From Cryptosporangium aurantiacum (GTDB lineage: Bacteria; Actinomycetota; Actinomycetes; Mycobacteriales; Cryptosporangiaceae), in assembly GCF_900143005.1 (NCBI RefSeq), contig NZ_FRCS01000009.1:248001-312000 (forward strand): DNA of 64,000 nucleotides, read 5' to 3'. Below the pieces are notes generated by a model. That model saw only the letters and a list, made by a program, of their open reading frames with translations, made no database searches and had not been told where the DNA came from. This document shows positions 51,049 through 57,136 of the stretch, one piece after another. The stretch's first letter is position 1, and each line of letters starts with the position of its first letter. A program made the position numbers and the translations under genes.

Positions 51049-51768
51049 ATGATCACCCTGCGACATGTGACCAAGATGTACGGCGCCAGGGCGGCCGTCG
51101 ACGACCTCACGGTGGACGTCCGCCCCGGCCGGGTGACCGGCTTCCTCGGCCCCAACGGGGCAGGCAAGTCCACCACGATGCGGATCCTGCTCGGCCTCGA
51201 CCGCGCGGACGCCGGTGAGGCGCTGATCAACGGCGTCCGGTACGCCGAGTTGGCGTGGCCGCTGCGGGAGGTCGGTGCGGCGCTCGACGCCCGCAGCTTC
51301 CACCCGGGCCGCACCGCCCGCGCGCACCTGCTCGGGCTGGCGCGGAGCAACCGCATCCCGCTGCGCCGGGTCGACGAGGTGCTGACCGCGGTGGGGCTCG
51401 AGTCCGCCGCCGACCAGCGGGCCGGCCGGTTCTCGCTCGGCATGGGGCAGCGGCTCGGGATCGCCGCCGCGCTGCTCGGCGACCCCGCGGTGCTGGTGTT
51501 CGACGAGCCGGTCAACGGCCTCGACCCGGAGGGGGTGCGGTGGGTCCGCGACCTCGCCCGGTCGCTGGCCGCCGAGGGCCGGACCGTGCTGCTCTCCTCG
51601 CACCTGATGAGCGAGGCCCAGCTGACCGCCGATCACCTGGTGATCCTCGGTCGTGGACGGTTGCTCGCCGATGCCCCGCTGGCCGAGTTCGTCGCGTCCC
51701 ACGCGTCGCTGGAGGACGCTTACCTCGCGCTGACCGCGGACGCGGTGGAGTACGGGGCTGCTCGATGA
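51049..51768 (+). CDS. ABC transporter ATP-binding protein (drug/lantibiotic exporter type)
   Basis: Protein of 239 residues with Walker A LGPNGAGKSTTMRIL, the signature FSLGMGQRLGIAAALLG (MGQ in place of SGG, common in this exporter branch), Walker B VLVFDEPVNGLDPEG and the H-loop LLSSHLMSE. It pairs with the following permease, whose start overlaps its stop (ATGA). Export of an antibiotic or lipid-like compound is likely. Confidence 0.92.
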   Translation: MITLRHVTKMYGARAAVDDLTVDVRPGRVTGFLGPNGAGKSTTMRILLGLDRADAGEALINGVRYAELAWPLREVGAALDARSFHPGRTARAHLLGLARSNRIPLRRVDEVLTAVGLESAADQRAGRFSLGMGQRLGIAAALLGDPAVLVFDEPVNGLDPEGVRWVRDLARSLAAEGRTVLLSSHLMSEAQLTADHLVILGRGRLLADAPLAEFVASHASLEDAYLALTADAVEYGAAR

Positions 51769-52529
51769 GCGCCGCGCTGGCATTCGAGTGGACGAAACTG
51801 CGGACCCTGCGCTCGACGTGGTGGTGCCTGGGCGTCGCGGTGCTGCTCCAGGTGGCATACGCGACGCTGATCGGGCTCGACGCGCGGCTCGACCTGGAGG
51901 ACAGCGGTGGCTCCTCGCCACTGCCGGTCAGCGACGCGGGCCTGCTGTCGGTGCAGTTCGCCCAGTACGCGCTGATCGCCGCCGCGCTGCTCGCCATCAC
52001 CGGCGAGTACTCGACCGGGACGATCGGCGTCTCGCTGCGGGCCGTTCCGGCGCGGGGGCGGCTCCTCGCCGCGAAGGCCGCGGTCGTGGCCGGAGGTGCG
52101 GCGCTGGTCGGCGTCGTGCTCATGCTGGCCGCGGCGCTGGCCGGCGGTCTCGCCGCCGGGTCACCGGCGGTCTGGGGCGTGGGTGACCTGCTCGCCGACG
52201 GCGCGGTCGTCGCCGCGTACGCCGCCGCGATCGCGGTGTTCACGCTCGGGCTCGGCACCGCGCTGCGCAGTGCGGTCGGCGGGCTGACCGCCGTGCTGGT
52301 GGTGGCCGTGGTGCTGCCCACGGTGATCGGCCGGATCGGCATCGACGCGGTGGCCGAGGTCAACGACTACCTGCCGGGGTCCGCCGGCGTCGCGGTGCTG
52401 TACGGCGCGCTGTCCGACGCCGAGACGAGCCAGCCGTTCGGGCCGGGTGTCGGGCTTCTCGTGCTCACCGTCTGGGCTCTCGCTTCGCTGGGCGCCGGGT
52501 ACGCGGTGCTGCGCCGCCGCGACGCCTGA
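51765..52529 (+). CDS. ABC-2 type transporter permease
   Basis: Protein of 254 residues with six predicted membrane helices. It opens with the usual FEWTKLRTLRSTWW and has an ITGEYSTGTIGVSLRAVPARGRLLAAK coupling region in outline. The start overlaps the ATPase stop. It ends before a strong terminator hairpin. Confidence 0.92.
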   Translation: MSAALAFEWTKLRTLRSTWWCLGVAVLLQVAYATLIGLDARLDLEDSGGSSPLPVSDAGLLSVQFAQYALIAAALLAITGEYSTGTIGVSLRAVPARGRLLAAKAAVVAGGAALVGVVLMLAAALAGGLAAGSPAVWGVGDLLADGAVVAAYAAAIAVFTLGLGTALRSAVGGLTAVLVVAVVLPTVIGRIGIDAVAEVNDYLPGSAGVAVLYGALSDAETSQPFGPGVGLLVLTVWALASLGAGYAVLRRRDA

Positions 52530-52673: not shown

Positions 52674-53732
52674 GTGTCCAGCGCCGCCACGCTCTCCGGT
52701 CCGGAACCGTCCACCAGCCCGCTCACCGCACGCCGCCGCACCCGCTGGATCGTCGGGATCCTGCTCGCGGTCGTCCTGGTAGTGGCGGCCGTCGTGACCG
52801 TCGTCGTCGTCACCGTCGTCGATGACCCCGACGTGATCTCGCTCCGGATCGCGGACCAGAACTCGGCGTACTCGGTGGCGATCAGCCCGGACAATCGCAC
52901 GCTCGCGCTGGGGATCGGCAACACCCCCGTAGAGCTCTGGGACGCCACGACCGGCACGTCACGGCGCACGCCGCTCACCGGTCTCGACAACGTCGGCGGC
53001 GAGGTGGAGTTCAGCCCCGACGGCACGATCATCGCCGCCGGCGGGGTGCGCACGATCATGCTCTGGGACCCACGAACCGGCGATCCGATCCACCGGATTC
53101 CCGGGCACGCGGAGTACGCGATCACCGACCTCGCGTTCAGCCCGGACGGCCGGATCCTCGCGTCGGCCGGCTACGACCAGACCCTCCGGCTCTGGGACGT
53201 CCGGACCGGCGCCGCGATCGGAACGCCGTTGAGCGGTCACGGTGCGATCGTGGGCTCGGTCACGTTCAGCCCGGACGGACGCACGCTCTACTACACCAGC
53301 GGCCAGGGCGTCGTGCGCTACGACACCGCGACCCGCAGGCAGCTCGGAGCGCCGCTCCAGGACAGCGACGGCGTGACGACGCTCGTGTTCAGCCCGGACG
53401 GGTCGGTTCTGGTCGGCGGCGACAACGACGGCGTCCTGCGCCGGTGGGATCCGGTCACCGGCCTGCTGCGCGGTGAACCGTTCGACACGAAGACCGAGGC
53501 GGTGGTCGCGCTCGCGTTCCCAGCGAAGGGCGACGTCATCGCGGTCGCCGGGTACTTCAAGGTCGGGCTCTGGGACATCGGTACCGCAGAGCAGGTCGGC
53601 GACGACATCACCCGCACCGAGGGCCCGGAGGACGAGGAGGAGTACCACTCGATGGCGATCAGCCCCGACGGCCGCCGGATCGTTGCCTCGACCAGCAGGA
53701 GCGTCGTCCAGATCGTGTCGCTGGAGGACTAG
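52674..53732 (+). CDS. Membrane-anchored WD40-repeat protein
   Basis: Protein of 352 residues. A short cytoplasmic N terminus and one transmembrane helix near residues 25-47 are followed by about seven WD40 blades, marked by repeated FSPDGRILASAGYDQTLRLWD-type units and closing with VQIVSLED. The beta-propeller would face outward. In other actinobacteria such WD40 domains follow kinase domains; here no kinase is attached. The start is GTG 52674. It may bind a partner protein or polymer at the surface. It lies between an exporter and a two-component system. Confidence 0.82.
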   Translation: MSSAATLSGPEPSTSPLTARRRTRWIVGILLAVVLVVAAVVTVVVVTVVDDPDVISLRIADQNSAYSVAISPDNRTLALGIGNTPVELWDATTGTSRRTPLTGLDNVGGEVEFSPDGTIIAAGGVRTIMLWDPRTGDPIHRIPGHAEYAITDLAFSPDGRILASAGYDQTLRLWDVRTGAAIGTPLSGHGAIVGSVTFSPDGRTLYYTSGQGVVRYDTATRRQLGAPLQDSDGVTTLVFSPDGSVLVGGDNDGVLRRWDPVTGLLRGEPFDTKTEAVVALAFPAKGDVIAVAGYFKVGLWDIGTAEQVGDDITRTEGPEDEEEYHSMAISPDGRRIVASTSRSVVQIVSLED

Positions 53733-53769: not shown

Positions 53770-54441
53770 CTACTCGGCGGCGGCGAGGCCGGCCTCGTGG
53801 GCGAGCAGCGCGGCCTGCACCCGGTTCTTGACGCCCAGCCGGCTCAGGATCGCGCTGACGTACGCCTTGACCGTGCCCTCGACGAGGAACAGGCGCCGGG
53901 CGATGTCCGCGTTGGACAATCCCGCGCCCACCAGCGACAGCACCTCCCGCTCGCGCTCGGTCAGCTCGGCGATCCGCTCCCGGGCCGCGGCCGCCCGGCC
54001 GGTGCGTCCCGCCGTCCAGGTCGCGATCACCCGGTGAGCGACCTTCGGCGACAGGAACGCGGCGCCCTCGGCGGCGGCGTGCACCCCGGCGAGCAGCTCG
54101 CGAGGGTCGCCGGACTTGAGCAGGAACCCGGCCGCGCCCGCGGTGAGCGCCCGCTCGATGTACTCGTCCTCGCCGAACGTCGTCAGCACGAGCACCGCCA
54201 CCGACGGCACCGCCCGCCGGAGCTCCTCGGCCGCCGAGAGACCGTCCATCAGCGGCATCCGGACGTCGAGCAGGACGACGTCCGGGCGGTGCTTGCGGGC
54301 CGCGTCCACCGCCTCGCGGCCGTCGGCGGCCTCGGCGACCACCTCGATCTGCGGATCGGTGGTCAGGATGGCCCGGACCCCGGCCCGGATCATCGCCTCG
54401 TCGTCGGCCACTACGACCCGGATCAAATTCTGGCCTCCCAT
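53770..54441 (-). CDS. NarL/LuxR-family response regulator
   Basis: Protein of 223 residues. The receiver domain has the acidic pair near residue 13 (VVVADDEAMIRAG), phosphorylation site Asp59 (VVLLDVRMPLMDG) and Lys in GFLLKSGDP. The C-terminal LuxR helix-turn-helix is LTEREREVLSLVGAGLSNADIARRLFLVEGTVKAYVSAIL in outline. The ATG overlaps the kinase stop by one base (TGATG), so the pair is co-translated. Its likely target motif CTGACGAAAGT occurs upstream of its own operon and of the ABC exporter. Confidence 0.92.
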   Translation of the reverse strand: MGGQNLIRVVVADDEAMIRAGVRAILTTDPQIEVVAEAADGREAVDAARKHRPDVVLLDVRMPLMDGLSAAEELRRAVPSVAVLVLTTFGEDEYIERALTAGAAGFLLKSGDPRELLAGVHAAAEGAAFLSPKVAHRVIATWTAGRTGRAAAARERIAELTEREREVLSLVGAGLSNADIARRLFLVEGTVKAYVSAILSRLGVKNRVQAALLAHEAGLAAAE

Positions 54442-56138
54442 CACCCACGGCCTCCTCGTGCTGTTCGTCCCGGGATCAGGTCGATCCCGGCCACTTTTTC
54501 GTCGGCGAAGCAGATCCGGTACACGTCCCGGACCGGCGGAAACAGTTCGCCGCTGACGTTGTAGTACTCGCAGCGCGCGCCGGGCGGCCGGGCGGGCTCG
54601 CTGACGTTCGGCCGCTCGGTCACCTCGAGGTACGGCAGGATGTCGCGGGCCTCGCTCTCGGCCTGCCCGACGTGCAGGCGGGCCGCGTCGAGCGGTGTGA
54701 GCACCGAGCCCCGGGTCTCGACCACGTAGGCCCCGACGACGGTGCCGACCAGCAGGACCGCGGCCGCCGCCGGAACGAGCACGGTGAGGGCCAGGCCCCG
54801 GCGCGTGCGACGCCGGGCCCGCGCGAGCCGCCCGGACGCCTCGGCCGGCGCCTCGCTCACCAGCGCGGCCGCCCGGCTCTCCCGGGCGGCGGCTCGGCTC
54901 GGTGCGGCGTCCGGGGCGGGGGTGAGCGCGGTCGCGGGTTCGCGGGGAACGGTCGCGGTGAGCGTGAACGTGCCGCCCCCCGTGTCGGTGGTGAGTGTTC
55001 CCCCGGCCAGCCGAACCCGCTCCGCGAGCCCGAGTAGCCCGGTGCCGCCGACGGTGCCGGCCCCGGCGCCCCCTGCGGTGGTGCCGATCGCGGGACGTGC
55101 GCCGGCCCGATCGGTCCGGCTGCCGTCCTCCTCGCCGGGCGCGAGCGGGTTCGTCAGGACGACGGTCACGGTCTCCGGGGCGATCGTCAGGCGGCCGGTC
55201 ACCGCGTTCCCCGGTGCGTGCCGGGCCGCGTTGGTCAGTCCCTCCTGCACCACCCGGTACAGCGCCCGGTCCGCGAGCGGCGGCAACCCGCTGTTCGCCT
55301 GCTGCCCGGCGTCCACACCGTTGTTGTTCTGAATGCGCCAGTCGATCACCAGACCCGCGCGTCGCACGCGGTCGACCAGCGTGGTGATCGTCTCGTCGGC
55401 GGGCTGCAGCGGCGCGTCGGCGCCCGCGCGCAGCACGCCGATCACCGTGCGCAGTCGCTCGGTGGCCGCGGCGGCACCGGCGCGGAGCTCCGCCGCGGCC
55501 TCGCGCTGCGCCGGGCCGAGCGACCGGTCGAGCTCCAGCGCTCCGGCCCGCAGAGCGATCAGGCTCAGCTCGTGGCCGAGCGCGTCGTGCATGTCCTCGG
55601 CGATCCGCGTCCGTTCCCGCAGCCGCGCGCGTTCGGCGACCAGCGTCTGGCCGCGTTCCAGCTCCTCGGCGAGCGCCCATCCGCCGACCGCGAGTTCCCG
55701 GCGCTGGCGCAGGTACCGGCCGACCAGCCACGGGAAGATCCCGCAGAACACGATCTCGGCCACGAGGGAGTAGGCGACCCAGGGGTCGGTGCCGACGAGC
55801 GCCGAACGGATCAGCGCGCAGGCCGCCCCGCCTGCGCCGACCGCGGCGAACGTCTGGAGCGCTGAGCGGGGCTGCACCGTGGAGCGTCCGACGAGGAACG
55901 CGAGGCCCGCGAACGGAGCCGCCAGCCAGACGTCGAAGACCAGCAGACCGGCCGCGAGCACCAGGGACGTCAGCGGGGCGATCCGGCGCAGGCCGACCGC
56001 GACCGCGACGACGAGGCTCGCGAGCGCCAGCCAGTTGACGTAGGTGCCGTCGGCGAGGCGCTCTCCGTTCAGCGGCAGCAGCGCGCACAGCACCGCCCAG
56101 AGCAGCACGTCCGCGCCGATTCTTCGCAGCCGGGTCAC
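54441..56138 (-). CDS. DesK-type sensor histidine kinase with an extra C-terminal membrane/exterior domain
   Basis: Protein of about 565 residues. Four or five N-terminal membrane helices are followed by HisKA_3 with phospho-acceptor His184 (EDMHDALGHELSLIALRAG) and an HATPase domain with VVQEGLTNAARHAPGN as N-box and GTGLLGLAERVRLAGG as G-box. Unusually, the chain continues for about 170 residues: an Arg/Ala-rich stretch, a further transmembrane helix (LALTVLVPAAAAVLLVGTVVG) and an outside domain with two cysteines (ARCEYYNVSGELFPP, YRICFADEKVAGIDLIPG). The start is GTG 56138; a longer reading is possible. The extra part may be a sensor or a fused accessory protein. Confidence 0.85.
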   Translation of the reverse strand: MTRLRRIGADVLLWAVLCALLPLNGERLADGTYVNWLALASLVVAVAVGLRRIAPLTSLVLAAGLLVFDVWLAAPFAGLAFLVGRSTVQPRSALQTFAAVGAGGAACALIRSALVGTDPWVAYSLVAEIVFCGIFPWLVGRYLRQRRELAVGGWALAEELERGQTLVAERARLRERTRIAEDMHDALGHELSLIALRAGALELDRSLGPAQREAAAELRAGAAAATERLRTVIGVLRAGADAPLQPADETITTLVDRVRRAGLVIDWRIQNNNGVDAGQQANSGLPPLADRALYRVVQEGLTNAARHAPGNAVTGRLTIAPETVTVVLTNPLAPGEEDGSRTDRAGARPAIGTTAGGAGAGTVGGTGLLGLAERVRLAGGTLTTDTGGGTFTLTATVPREPATALTPAPDAAPSRAAARESRAAALVSEAPAEASGRLARARRRTRRGLALTVLVPAAAAVLLVGTVVGAYVVETRGSVLTPLDAARLHVGQAESEARDILPYLEVTERPNVSEPARPPGARCEYYNVSGELFPPVRDVYRICFADEKVAGIDLIPGRTARGGRG

Positions 56139-56200: not shown

Positions 56201-57136
56201 ATGCGTGCACGCGGAATCAACTACGACACCGGGTTCCTGCCCGGCGCCGCCTCCCGGCCGGAGTTCTCGCCGGACGCGGTCCGGCACGACCTGGGCGTGA
56301 TCGCCCGGAACCTGCACTGCGACGCGGTGCGGATCTCCGGCGGCGACCCCGAACGGCTCCGGGTCGCGGCGGACGCGGCCGCTTCCGAGGGCCTGGAAGT
56401 CTGGTTCGCACCGTTTCCAGTCGATTTATCGACCGACGAGGTGCTGCGGTTGTTCGGCGAGTGCGCCGAACTGGCCGCCGACCTACCGGGCGACGTGGTG
56501 TTCGTCGCCGGGTGCGAGATGAGCGCGTTCTGCCACGGTTTCCTGCCCGGGGCGACGTACGGCGAGCGGCTGGCGACGCTCGCCGCCGCCGACCTGGAGT
56601 GGTGGTCGTCGCTGGGGCCGGTGATCGAGCGCCTCAACGGTTTCCTCGTCGAGGTGGCCGCGACCGTCCGCCGCCGCTTCGACGGGAGGGTCACGTACGC
56701 GGCCGCTCCGTGGGAGTTCATCGACTGGACGCCGTTCGACGTCGTCAGCGTCGACGCGTACCGGGCCGCGTACAACGCCGCCACGTTCCGCGACGAGGTG
56801 CGCGGGCACTTCGCGCACGGCAAGCCGGTCGCGGTCACCGAGTTCGGCACCTGCGCGTACCGCGGCGCGGCCGACCATGGCGGCATGGCCTGGCAACCGC
56901 CACCCGGCGCGGTCCGCGACGAGGACGAGCAGGTGCGGTACTTCACCGAGCTGATGGACGTGTTCGAAGCCGAGGGGGTGGACACCGCGCTGTGGTTCAC
57001 GTTCGCCGGGTTCGCGCACGTCGGTGAGGCGGACCTCGCGTCGTACGGCGTCGTCCGGATGCTGGACGGCTCGCGCTGGGAGCCGAAGGCGGTGTTCGCG
57101 GCGATGGCCGACCGGTACGCGAGACCGGCGTCATAG
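56201..57136 (+). CDS. Glycoside-hydrolase-like TIM-barrel protein, unknown substrate
   Basis: Protein of 311 residues with the beta/alpha pattern of clan-A-like glycosidases: GINYDTGFLPG at the start, CDAVRISGGDPERL, DVVFVAGCEMSAF with a Glu after strand 4, FDVVSVDAYRAAYN, VTEFGTCAYRGAADHGG with a second Glu, and DTALWFTFAGF. The two Glu residues are spaced as acid/base and nucleophile of retaining GH-A enzymes. No signal peptide is visible. Database names for relatives vary, so the reaction is unproven. Likely leaderless mRNA. Confidence 0.7.
   Translation: MRARGINYDTGFLPGAASRPEFSPDAVRHDLGVIARNLHCDAVRISGGDPERLRVAADAAASEGLEVWFAPFPVDLSTDEVLRLFGECAELAADLPGDVVFVAGCEMSAFCHGFLPGATYGERLATLAAADLEWWSSLGPVIERLNGFLVEVAATVRRRFDGRVTYAAAPWEFIDWTPFDVVSVDAYRAAYNAATFRDEVRGHFAHGKPVAVTEFGTCAYRGAADHGGMAWQPPPGAVRDEDEQVRYFTELMDVFEAEGVDTALWFTFAGFAHVGEADLASYGVVRMLDGSRWEPKAVFAAMADRYARPAS

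Follow-up and report, generated by a model that had tools for sequence, protein, structure and literature searches.

A HisKA_3 sensor kinase of Cryptosporangium aurantiacum with an additional membrane helix and a two-cysteine domain of predicted BamE/BLIP-type fold behind its ATPase domain

Where does a histidine kinase receive its signal when the chain continues beyond the ATPase domain? The question is raised by a gene in a 64,000-nucleotide stretch of the Cryptosporangium aurantiacum genome (contig NZ_FRCS01000009.1, positions 248,001 to 312,000; hereafter, the window). The kinase gene, at window positions 54441–56138 on the minus strand, is a single open frame of 565 codons running from a GTG start (56136–56138) to a TGA stop (54441–54443) with no internal stops. 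Its N-terminal membrane part (residues 7–139, positions 55722–56120, minus strand like all the parts that follow) comprises five to six helices, as a hydropathy scan gave five segments, with residues 52–85 possibly forming two, and a low-confidence full-length model gave six; the loops between them measure about 5–14 residues in the same scan. The HisKA_3 dimerisation and phosphotransfer domain (residues 175–239, 55422–55616; Pfam PF07730, 41.1 bits, cut-off 24) includes His184 within an EDMHDALGH box, the H-box being invariant in a six-row alignment. The HATPase_c catalytic domain (residues 291–398, 54945–55268) scored below the Pfam cut-off (PF02518, 19.8 bits, cut-off 26.4), as it also did in four of the five tailed relatives scanned, and the boxes EGLTNAARH and GTGLLGLAERV are present in this region. 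After it come a variable linker (residues 402–449, 54792–54935) that ends in the basic stretch RLARARRRTRRG and whose residues 402–430 have a pLDDT below 50 in the full-length model, a C-terminal membrane helix (residues 450–468, 54735–54791; within a model helix spanning 415–478), and a predicted extracytoplasmic domain (residues 476–557, 54468–54713) containing Cys523 and Cys543. This tail has about 80 residues and is followed by a short low-confidence end. With a pTM of 0.35, the full-length model is uninformative on the geometry between domains.

The preliminary description held that DesK-type kinases normally end at the HATPase domain, and this agrees with what was found in HisKA_3 kinases devoid of the tail: of their 35 stop-to-stop frames, which represent 33 distinct cores from three genomes, 30 have no more than 34 residues after that domain. 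It also described a basic linker, one more transmembrane helix and an outside domain with two cysteines in the window kinase; the hydropathy scan and the conserved cysteine pair bear this out, with the outside position as a prediction. The C-terminal helix has the highest hydropathy of the whole protein (2.42), a value that was reached 55 times when the C-terminal 165 residues were shuffled 20,000 times. Third-position GC stays the same on both sides of the joint, at 0.904 for the core and 0.903 for linker, helix and tail. Searches yielded 85 distinct tails, 73 of them in frame with a HisKA_3 core (that of the window counted, and L023 partial) and 12 without a kinase, the latter consisting of eight solo proteins and four fragments or contig ends (L024, L059, L072 and L074). 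The extra helix and two-cysteine domain after the ATPase domain of the window kinase are thus confirmed as real.

Conservation of the tail was analysed at the level of residues, substitution rates and distribution. Both Cys523 and Cys543 are invariant in a 14-row alignment of tails. Among the 85 distinct tails, 83 retain the pair, the two exceptions being gene fragments; Gly30, Pro44, Arg94 and Phe97 (alignment numbering) are each kept in more than 90% of the tails. Comparison of the window with its congeners G003, G001 and G002 gave dN/dS values of about 0.35, 0.64 and 0.38 for the tail and 0.36, 0.31 and 0.29 for the kinase core, which indicates a constraint on the tail that is weaker than that on the core in two of the three comparisons; judged by these rates, the tail is under purifying selection. 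It was detected in all four congeneric genomes covered and in 10 of the 61 genomes of that search (the window's own genome counted in both), whereas 39 of 61 sampled Streptomyces genomes carry the domain, either borne by a kinase or solo. A phylum-wide sample, in which 13 candidates were scored per genome, gave a lower bound of at least 8 out of 396 genomes, again with the window's own included. No second copy with an E value better than 0.65 appeared in the window's own genome among the 150 of 437 candidates that were scored, and none of the 61 matching records of a plasmid collection covered 80% of the query. Three Streptomyces sequences (L059, L072, L074) have the appearance of disrupted tailed kinases, suggesting occasional loss of the gene.

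Regarding topology, the 15 residues that precede the C-terminal helix, SGRLARARRRTRRGL, include seven arginines and not a single acidic residue, so the positive-inside rule predicts that the tail of the window kinase lies outside the cell. As the N-terminal loops are so short, the tail would be the only sizeable outside part of the protein, and this favours a location of the sensor in the C-terminal tail.

The fold of the tail had to be approached through structure prediction and profile comparison. None of the 14 aligned tails matches any Pfam family at E ≤ 1, including BamE (PF04355) and BLIP (PF07467); a genome search with PF04355 gave nothing at the kinase locus, and a comparison of the window's tail by itself with the NCBIfam models gave no match. 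Sub-cut-off Pfam matches were obtained for a solo relative carrying a DUF2510 domain (L033), both to BLIP (E 0.021) and to BamE (E 0.0076). The best sequence match to a solved structure had an E value of 0.33 and was taken as chance. An AlphaFold model of the tail built from six sequences reached a pLDDT of 82.5 and a pTM of 0.74, and shows two helices (H6–10, H18–22) followed by three strands (E46–51, E63–69, E72–79), the two-helix and three-strand arrangement given for the BamE-like fold in a published account (PMC12419801). Foldseek searches with this model returned BamE chains as the top nine matches (E 0.033 to 0.11; best 5ayw_E, probability 0.99) and an unrelated phage baseplate protein as the tenth, with none of the 403 matches at E ≤ 0.001. 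In VIA comparisons the tail aligned with BLIP (3e2k_C; Z 6.4, 67 residues, 3.1 Å) and with BamE (5d0o_E; Z 6.2, 72 residues, 3.4 Å), moderate values for which the tool itself warns that a Z below 8 can mean merely a common arrangement; ranks 1 to 40 were occupied by BamE, BLIP or BLIP-like proteins, OsmE and one T6SS immunity protein, with Z falling to 3.9 and 3.0 thereafter.

Profile–profile alignment points in the same direction. When 80 tails were compared by hhalign with six BLIP repeats, from three proteins of two Streptomyces genomes, a probability of 93.7% and a score of 40.0 were obtained (pairwise values, not those of a database search), with 90.4% against the second repeats alone and 46.2% against the first repeats alone; the best of 60 column-shuffled controls reached 4.3% and a score of 17.5, and ABC and kinase-core controls gave 0.1% and 0.3%. 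A value of 99.0% for L033 against the tails was set aside, as L033 is itself among the 80. Taken together, the predicted model and the profile comparison assign a BamE/BLIP-type fold to the tail, which probably shares ancestry with these proteins while belonging to neither Pfam family. Since the two cysteines sit on the adjacent strands 46–51 and 63–69 of the domain model, they would face each other by hairpin register, and we infer that a single Cys523–Cys543 disulphide holds the domain together.

The kinase had been interpreted in the preliminary description as a fusion with a small membrane lipoprotein-like gene. In support of part of this interpretation, eight of the 85 distinct tails are solo proteins lacking a kinase, small and apparently single-pass in the membrane. 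A lipoprotein origin found no support, as no lipobox was seen in these solo proteins by eye, and the expectation that the domain would be encoded as a separate gene beside kinases was not borne out, for a HisKA_3 kinase is near none of the eight solo loci (about 4 kb on each side). Fusion is therefore plausible. Six of the solos are small Streptomyces membrane proteins (L065, L032, L063, L073, L077 and L098; MAQRKGCLIGCGVAL...) with little beyond the helix and the two-cysteine domain; three of them (L065, L073, L077) compared with Pfam, and two solos compared with NCBIfam, gave nothing above the family cut-offs. In a tree of 80 tails (L023, L024, L059, L072 and L074 left out), built on few columns and thus weak, the eight solos require three changes: the six from Streptomyces cluster together within the tails of a second kinase clade, and L033 and L034 are placed separately, on long branches. 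Such nesting among the tails of one kinase clade makes fission from kinase to solo as possible as fusion. A GC..GCG motif, recognised by eye in the membrane helix, is common to the Streptomyces solos and members of that second clade, so helix and domain appear to have travelled as a unit.

A tree of the kinase cores, inferred by a quick method from 105 kinases of which 72 are tailed, grouped 43 tailed kinases in one clade, including that of the window, and 25 in another, with three in a third place and L025 in a doubtful one. Four gains or losses of the tail are needed on this tree, of which well-supported branches force only one; a single gain and several gains are both compatible with it. 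A third, divergent group of kinases (L114, L115, L116), placed among untailed ones, has a C-terminal helix followed by a tail with two cysteines that was only just detected (E 5e-7 to 3e-5); here the tail is possibly a separate gain.

The neighbourhood of the kinase was also inspected. Directly downstream lies the gene for its cognate response regulator (53770–54441, minus strand; receiver and LuxR/GerE domains, Pfam PF00072 and PF00196), whose start overlaps the kinase stop (TGATG). Further away, on the opposite strand, are the genes for an ABC exporter ATPase (51049–51768, plus strand; Pfam ABC_tran), a putative partner of the two-component system given that its subfamily occurs near related kinases, and for an ABC-2 permease (51765–52529, plus strand; ABC2_membrane_4, 27.6 bits, cut-off 27) that overlaps it. 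The ATPase gene is 2.7 kb from the kinase. Between the exporter and the two-component genes there is a WD40 beta-propeller gene (52674–53732, plus strand) with one N-terminal membrane segment, as judged by eye; from gene spacing alone, it appears to be present also in G003 and G002 (L091, L093) and not in G001 (L092). On the other side, a divergent glycoside-hydrolase-like gene (56201–57133, plus strand; GH113 below cut-off) begins 62 bases from the kinase start and, for that reason, may share a control region with it.

The association with the exporter was then quantified on 39 loci of the window's kinase clade, namely the window and 38 others, mostly of 12–19 kb and including L186 (the doubtful L025). 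Membership of the ATPase subfamily was set at 360 bits or more against a three-sequence profile, and 11 of the 39 loci had a member at a distance of about 5 kb or less from the kinase; as these 11 include all the loci whose sequences seeded the profile (window, L156, L157), the figure without them is 8 of 36. The 11 loci span four families of bacteria, with four of them from the genus of the window. No such ATPase was found near the kinase in the other 28 loci of this clade, nor in any of the 28 loci of type 2 (25) and type 3 (3), for which the flanks were shorter (about 4 kb, some less). Five genomes, chosen because a subfamily gene had already been seen near a kinase, were searched for their best-scoring relative of the window's ATPase. 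In four genomes (G054, G027, G387, G466) it was a copy 5 kb or less from a tailed kinase, and in G226 it lay elsewhere, with a weaker copy near the tailed kinase. Within the window's own genome, 10 of 14 ATPases scoring at least 200 bits, its own included, are 4 kb or less from a HisKA_3 kinase (for example C5:500918, C4:600103 and C10:162878), against some 4% expected at random. Both results argue that exporters of this subfamily habitually accompany such systems, a pattern that the pair in the window fits.

Architecture, conservation, fold, gene overlap and adjacency, which rest on sequence and prediction, lead us to a reading that we consider somewhat more probable than its negation: the tail would serve outside the cell as the sensing or docking part of a two-component system whose working partner is the nearby ABC-2 exporter. 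The sensor kinase of this HisKA_3/NarL-type system would be held by two anchors, the N-terminal bundle of five to six helices and the single C-terminal helix, the latter carrying the BamE/BLIP-fold domain outside as the part that receives the signal or docks a partner. Binding of a ligand outside the cell, which could be an envelope component, an antibiotic or an exported molecule, would move the long helix leading back into the ATPase domain and shift the balance between kinase and phosphatase activities, and the response regulator encoded by the overlapping gene would then adjust the exporter.

Among the alternatives, it is rather unlikely, though it deserves consideration, that the tail acts as an anchor or as an autoinhibitory clamp, holding the ATPase domain close to the membrane and setting the basal activity while the N-terminal helices do the sensing, as in DesK. 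Membrane fluidity is what DesK senses, and the membrane segments may be the sensing part in kinases whose outside loops are tiny (PMC11043171); the variability of the linker before the tail and the existence of the 33 distinct related kinases without one are consistent with this too. However, a pure anchor needs no conserved folded domain outside, and here the cysteine pair and four further residues are kept almost throughout. We consider it improbable that the docking partner of the tail is the exporter or its cargo, with the kinase reading the load of the transporter instead of a free ligand: BLIP and BamE do bind other proteins, and the 11 exporter-bearing loci speak for it, yet the exporter is missing near the majority of loci of the same clade and near all those of types 2 and 3. 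We give very little credit to a redox switch in which the two cysteines sense outside oxidants, because the nearly invariant pair on neighbouring strands, which might suggest it, is also kept in all eight solos and so looks like a disulphide that holds the fold, in line with the structural role of the cysteines of BLIP. Finally, a frame error at the joint, named in the preliminary description as a refutation, or a chance read-through of two genes is ruled out for practical purposes by the 71 other kinases with the tail in frame, by purifying selection and by the unchanged codon make-up, and nothing was found in its favour.

If the tail of the window kinase and its relatives does act as the sensor, signals must enter the ATPase domain from the C-terminal side in these kinases; we know of no structural model for signalling from the ATPase end instead of the histidine-helix end. 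More speculatively, and with a low probability in our estimation, the BLIP/BamE-type binding domain could be a movable outside receptor of Actinobacteria, used in several kinase clades, in solo proteins and in the secreted inhibitor BLIP, with the kinases reading, in this direction, the binding of a particular protein of the envelope or secretome, or of a lipid. In practical terms, the domain, common in the sampled Streptomyces genomes whether kinase-borne or solo, now has a concrete predicted fold, and the putative sensing part can therefore be expressed alone and assayed for binding partners.

The whole arrangement can be compared with known systems. In LnrJK/LnrLMN of Bacillus subtilis, a HisKA_3-type kinase and a NarL-type regulator are encoded beside an ABC-2 exporter, as in the window; to our knowledge, systems of this type have no C-terminal outside domain, unlike the window kinase. 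A search of titles and the beginnings of abstracts in the open-licence literature found no report of a BamE/BLIP fold on kinases, of the solo form of the tail or of the exporter link. BamE (PF04355), a lipoprotein of Gram-negative outer membranes and part of the outer-membrane barrel assembly machine, resembles the tail in its two-helix, three-strand fold and not in sequence. The resemblance to BLIP (PF07467) extends to fold, profile, cysteines and location outside the cell, predicted in the case of the tail; BLIP, however, is secreted and has two repeats, whereas the tail is a single repeat, membrane-bound on a kinase.

The closest parallel is AbsA1 (SCO3225) of Streptomyces coelicolor, whose topology was reportedly established in a primary paper by McKenzie and Nodwell (2009). 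Mutated positions of AbsA1 that we take to be His202, Leu253 and Ile360 fit the spacing in L035 of genome G387, a weak lead, as a literature search for these position numbers returned nothing; the neighbours of L035 include an ABC exporter ATPase and not an antibiotic cluster. As summarised in the relevant passages of reviews of 2013 and 2022 (PMC3881020, PMC9739842), AbsA1 is an atypical kinase with an unidentified signal. Of its five membrane domains four are at the N-terminus and one is at the C-terminus, and its C-terminal portion is extracellular according to eGFP fusions and probably includes the sensor. The architecture of the tailed kinases is thus not new, being known from AbsA1 as these passages present it: compared by description, both layouts run from N-terminal helices through the kinase to a C-terminal helix and an outside domain, with four N-terminal helices in AbsA1 against the five to six predicted in the window kinase. 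AbsA1 regulates antibiotic clusters, whereas the neighbour of the window kinase is an ABC-2 exporter.
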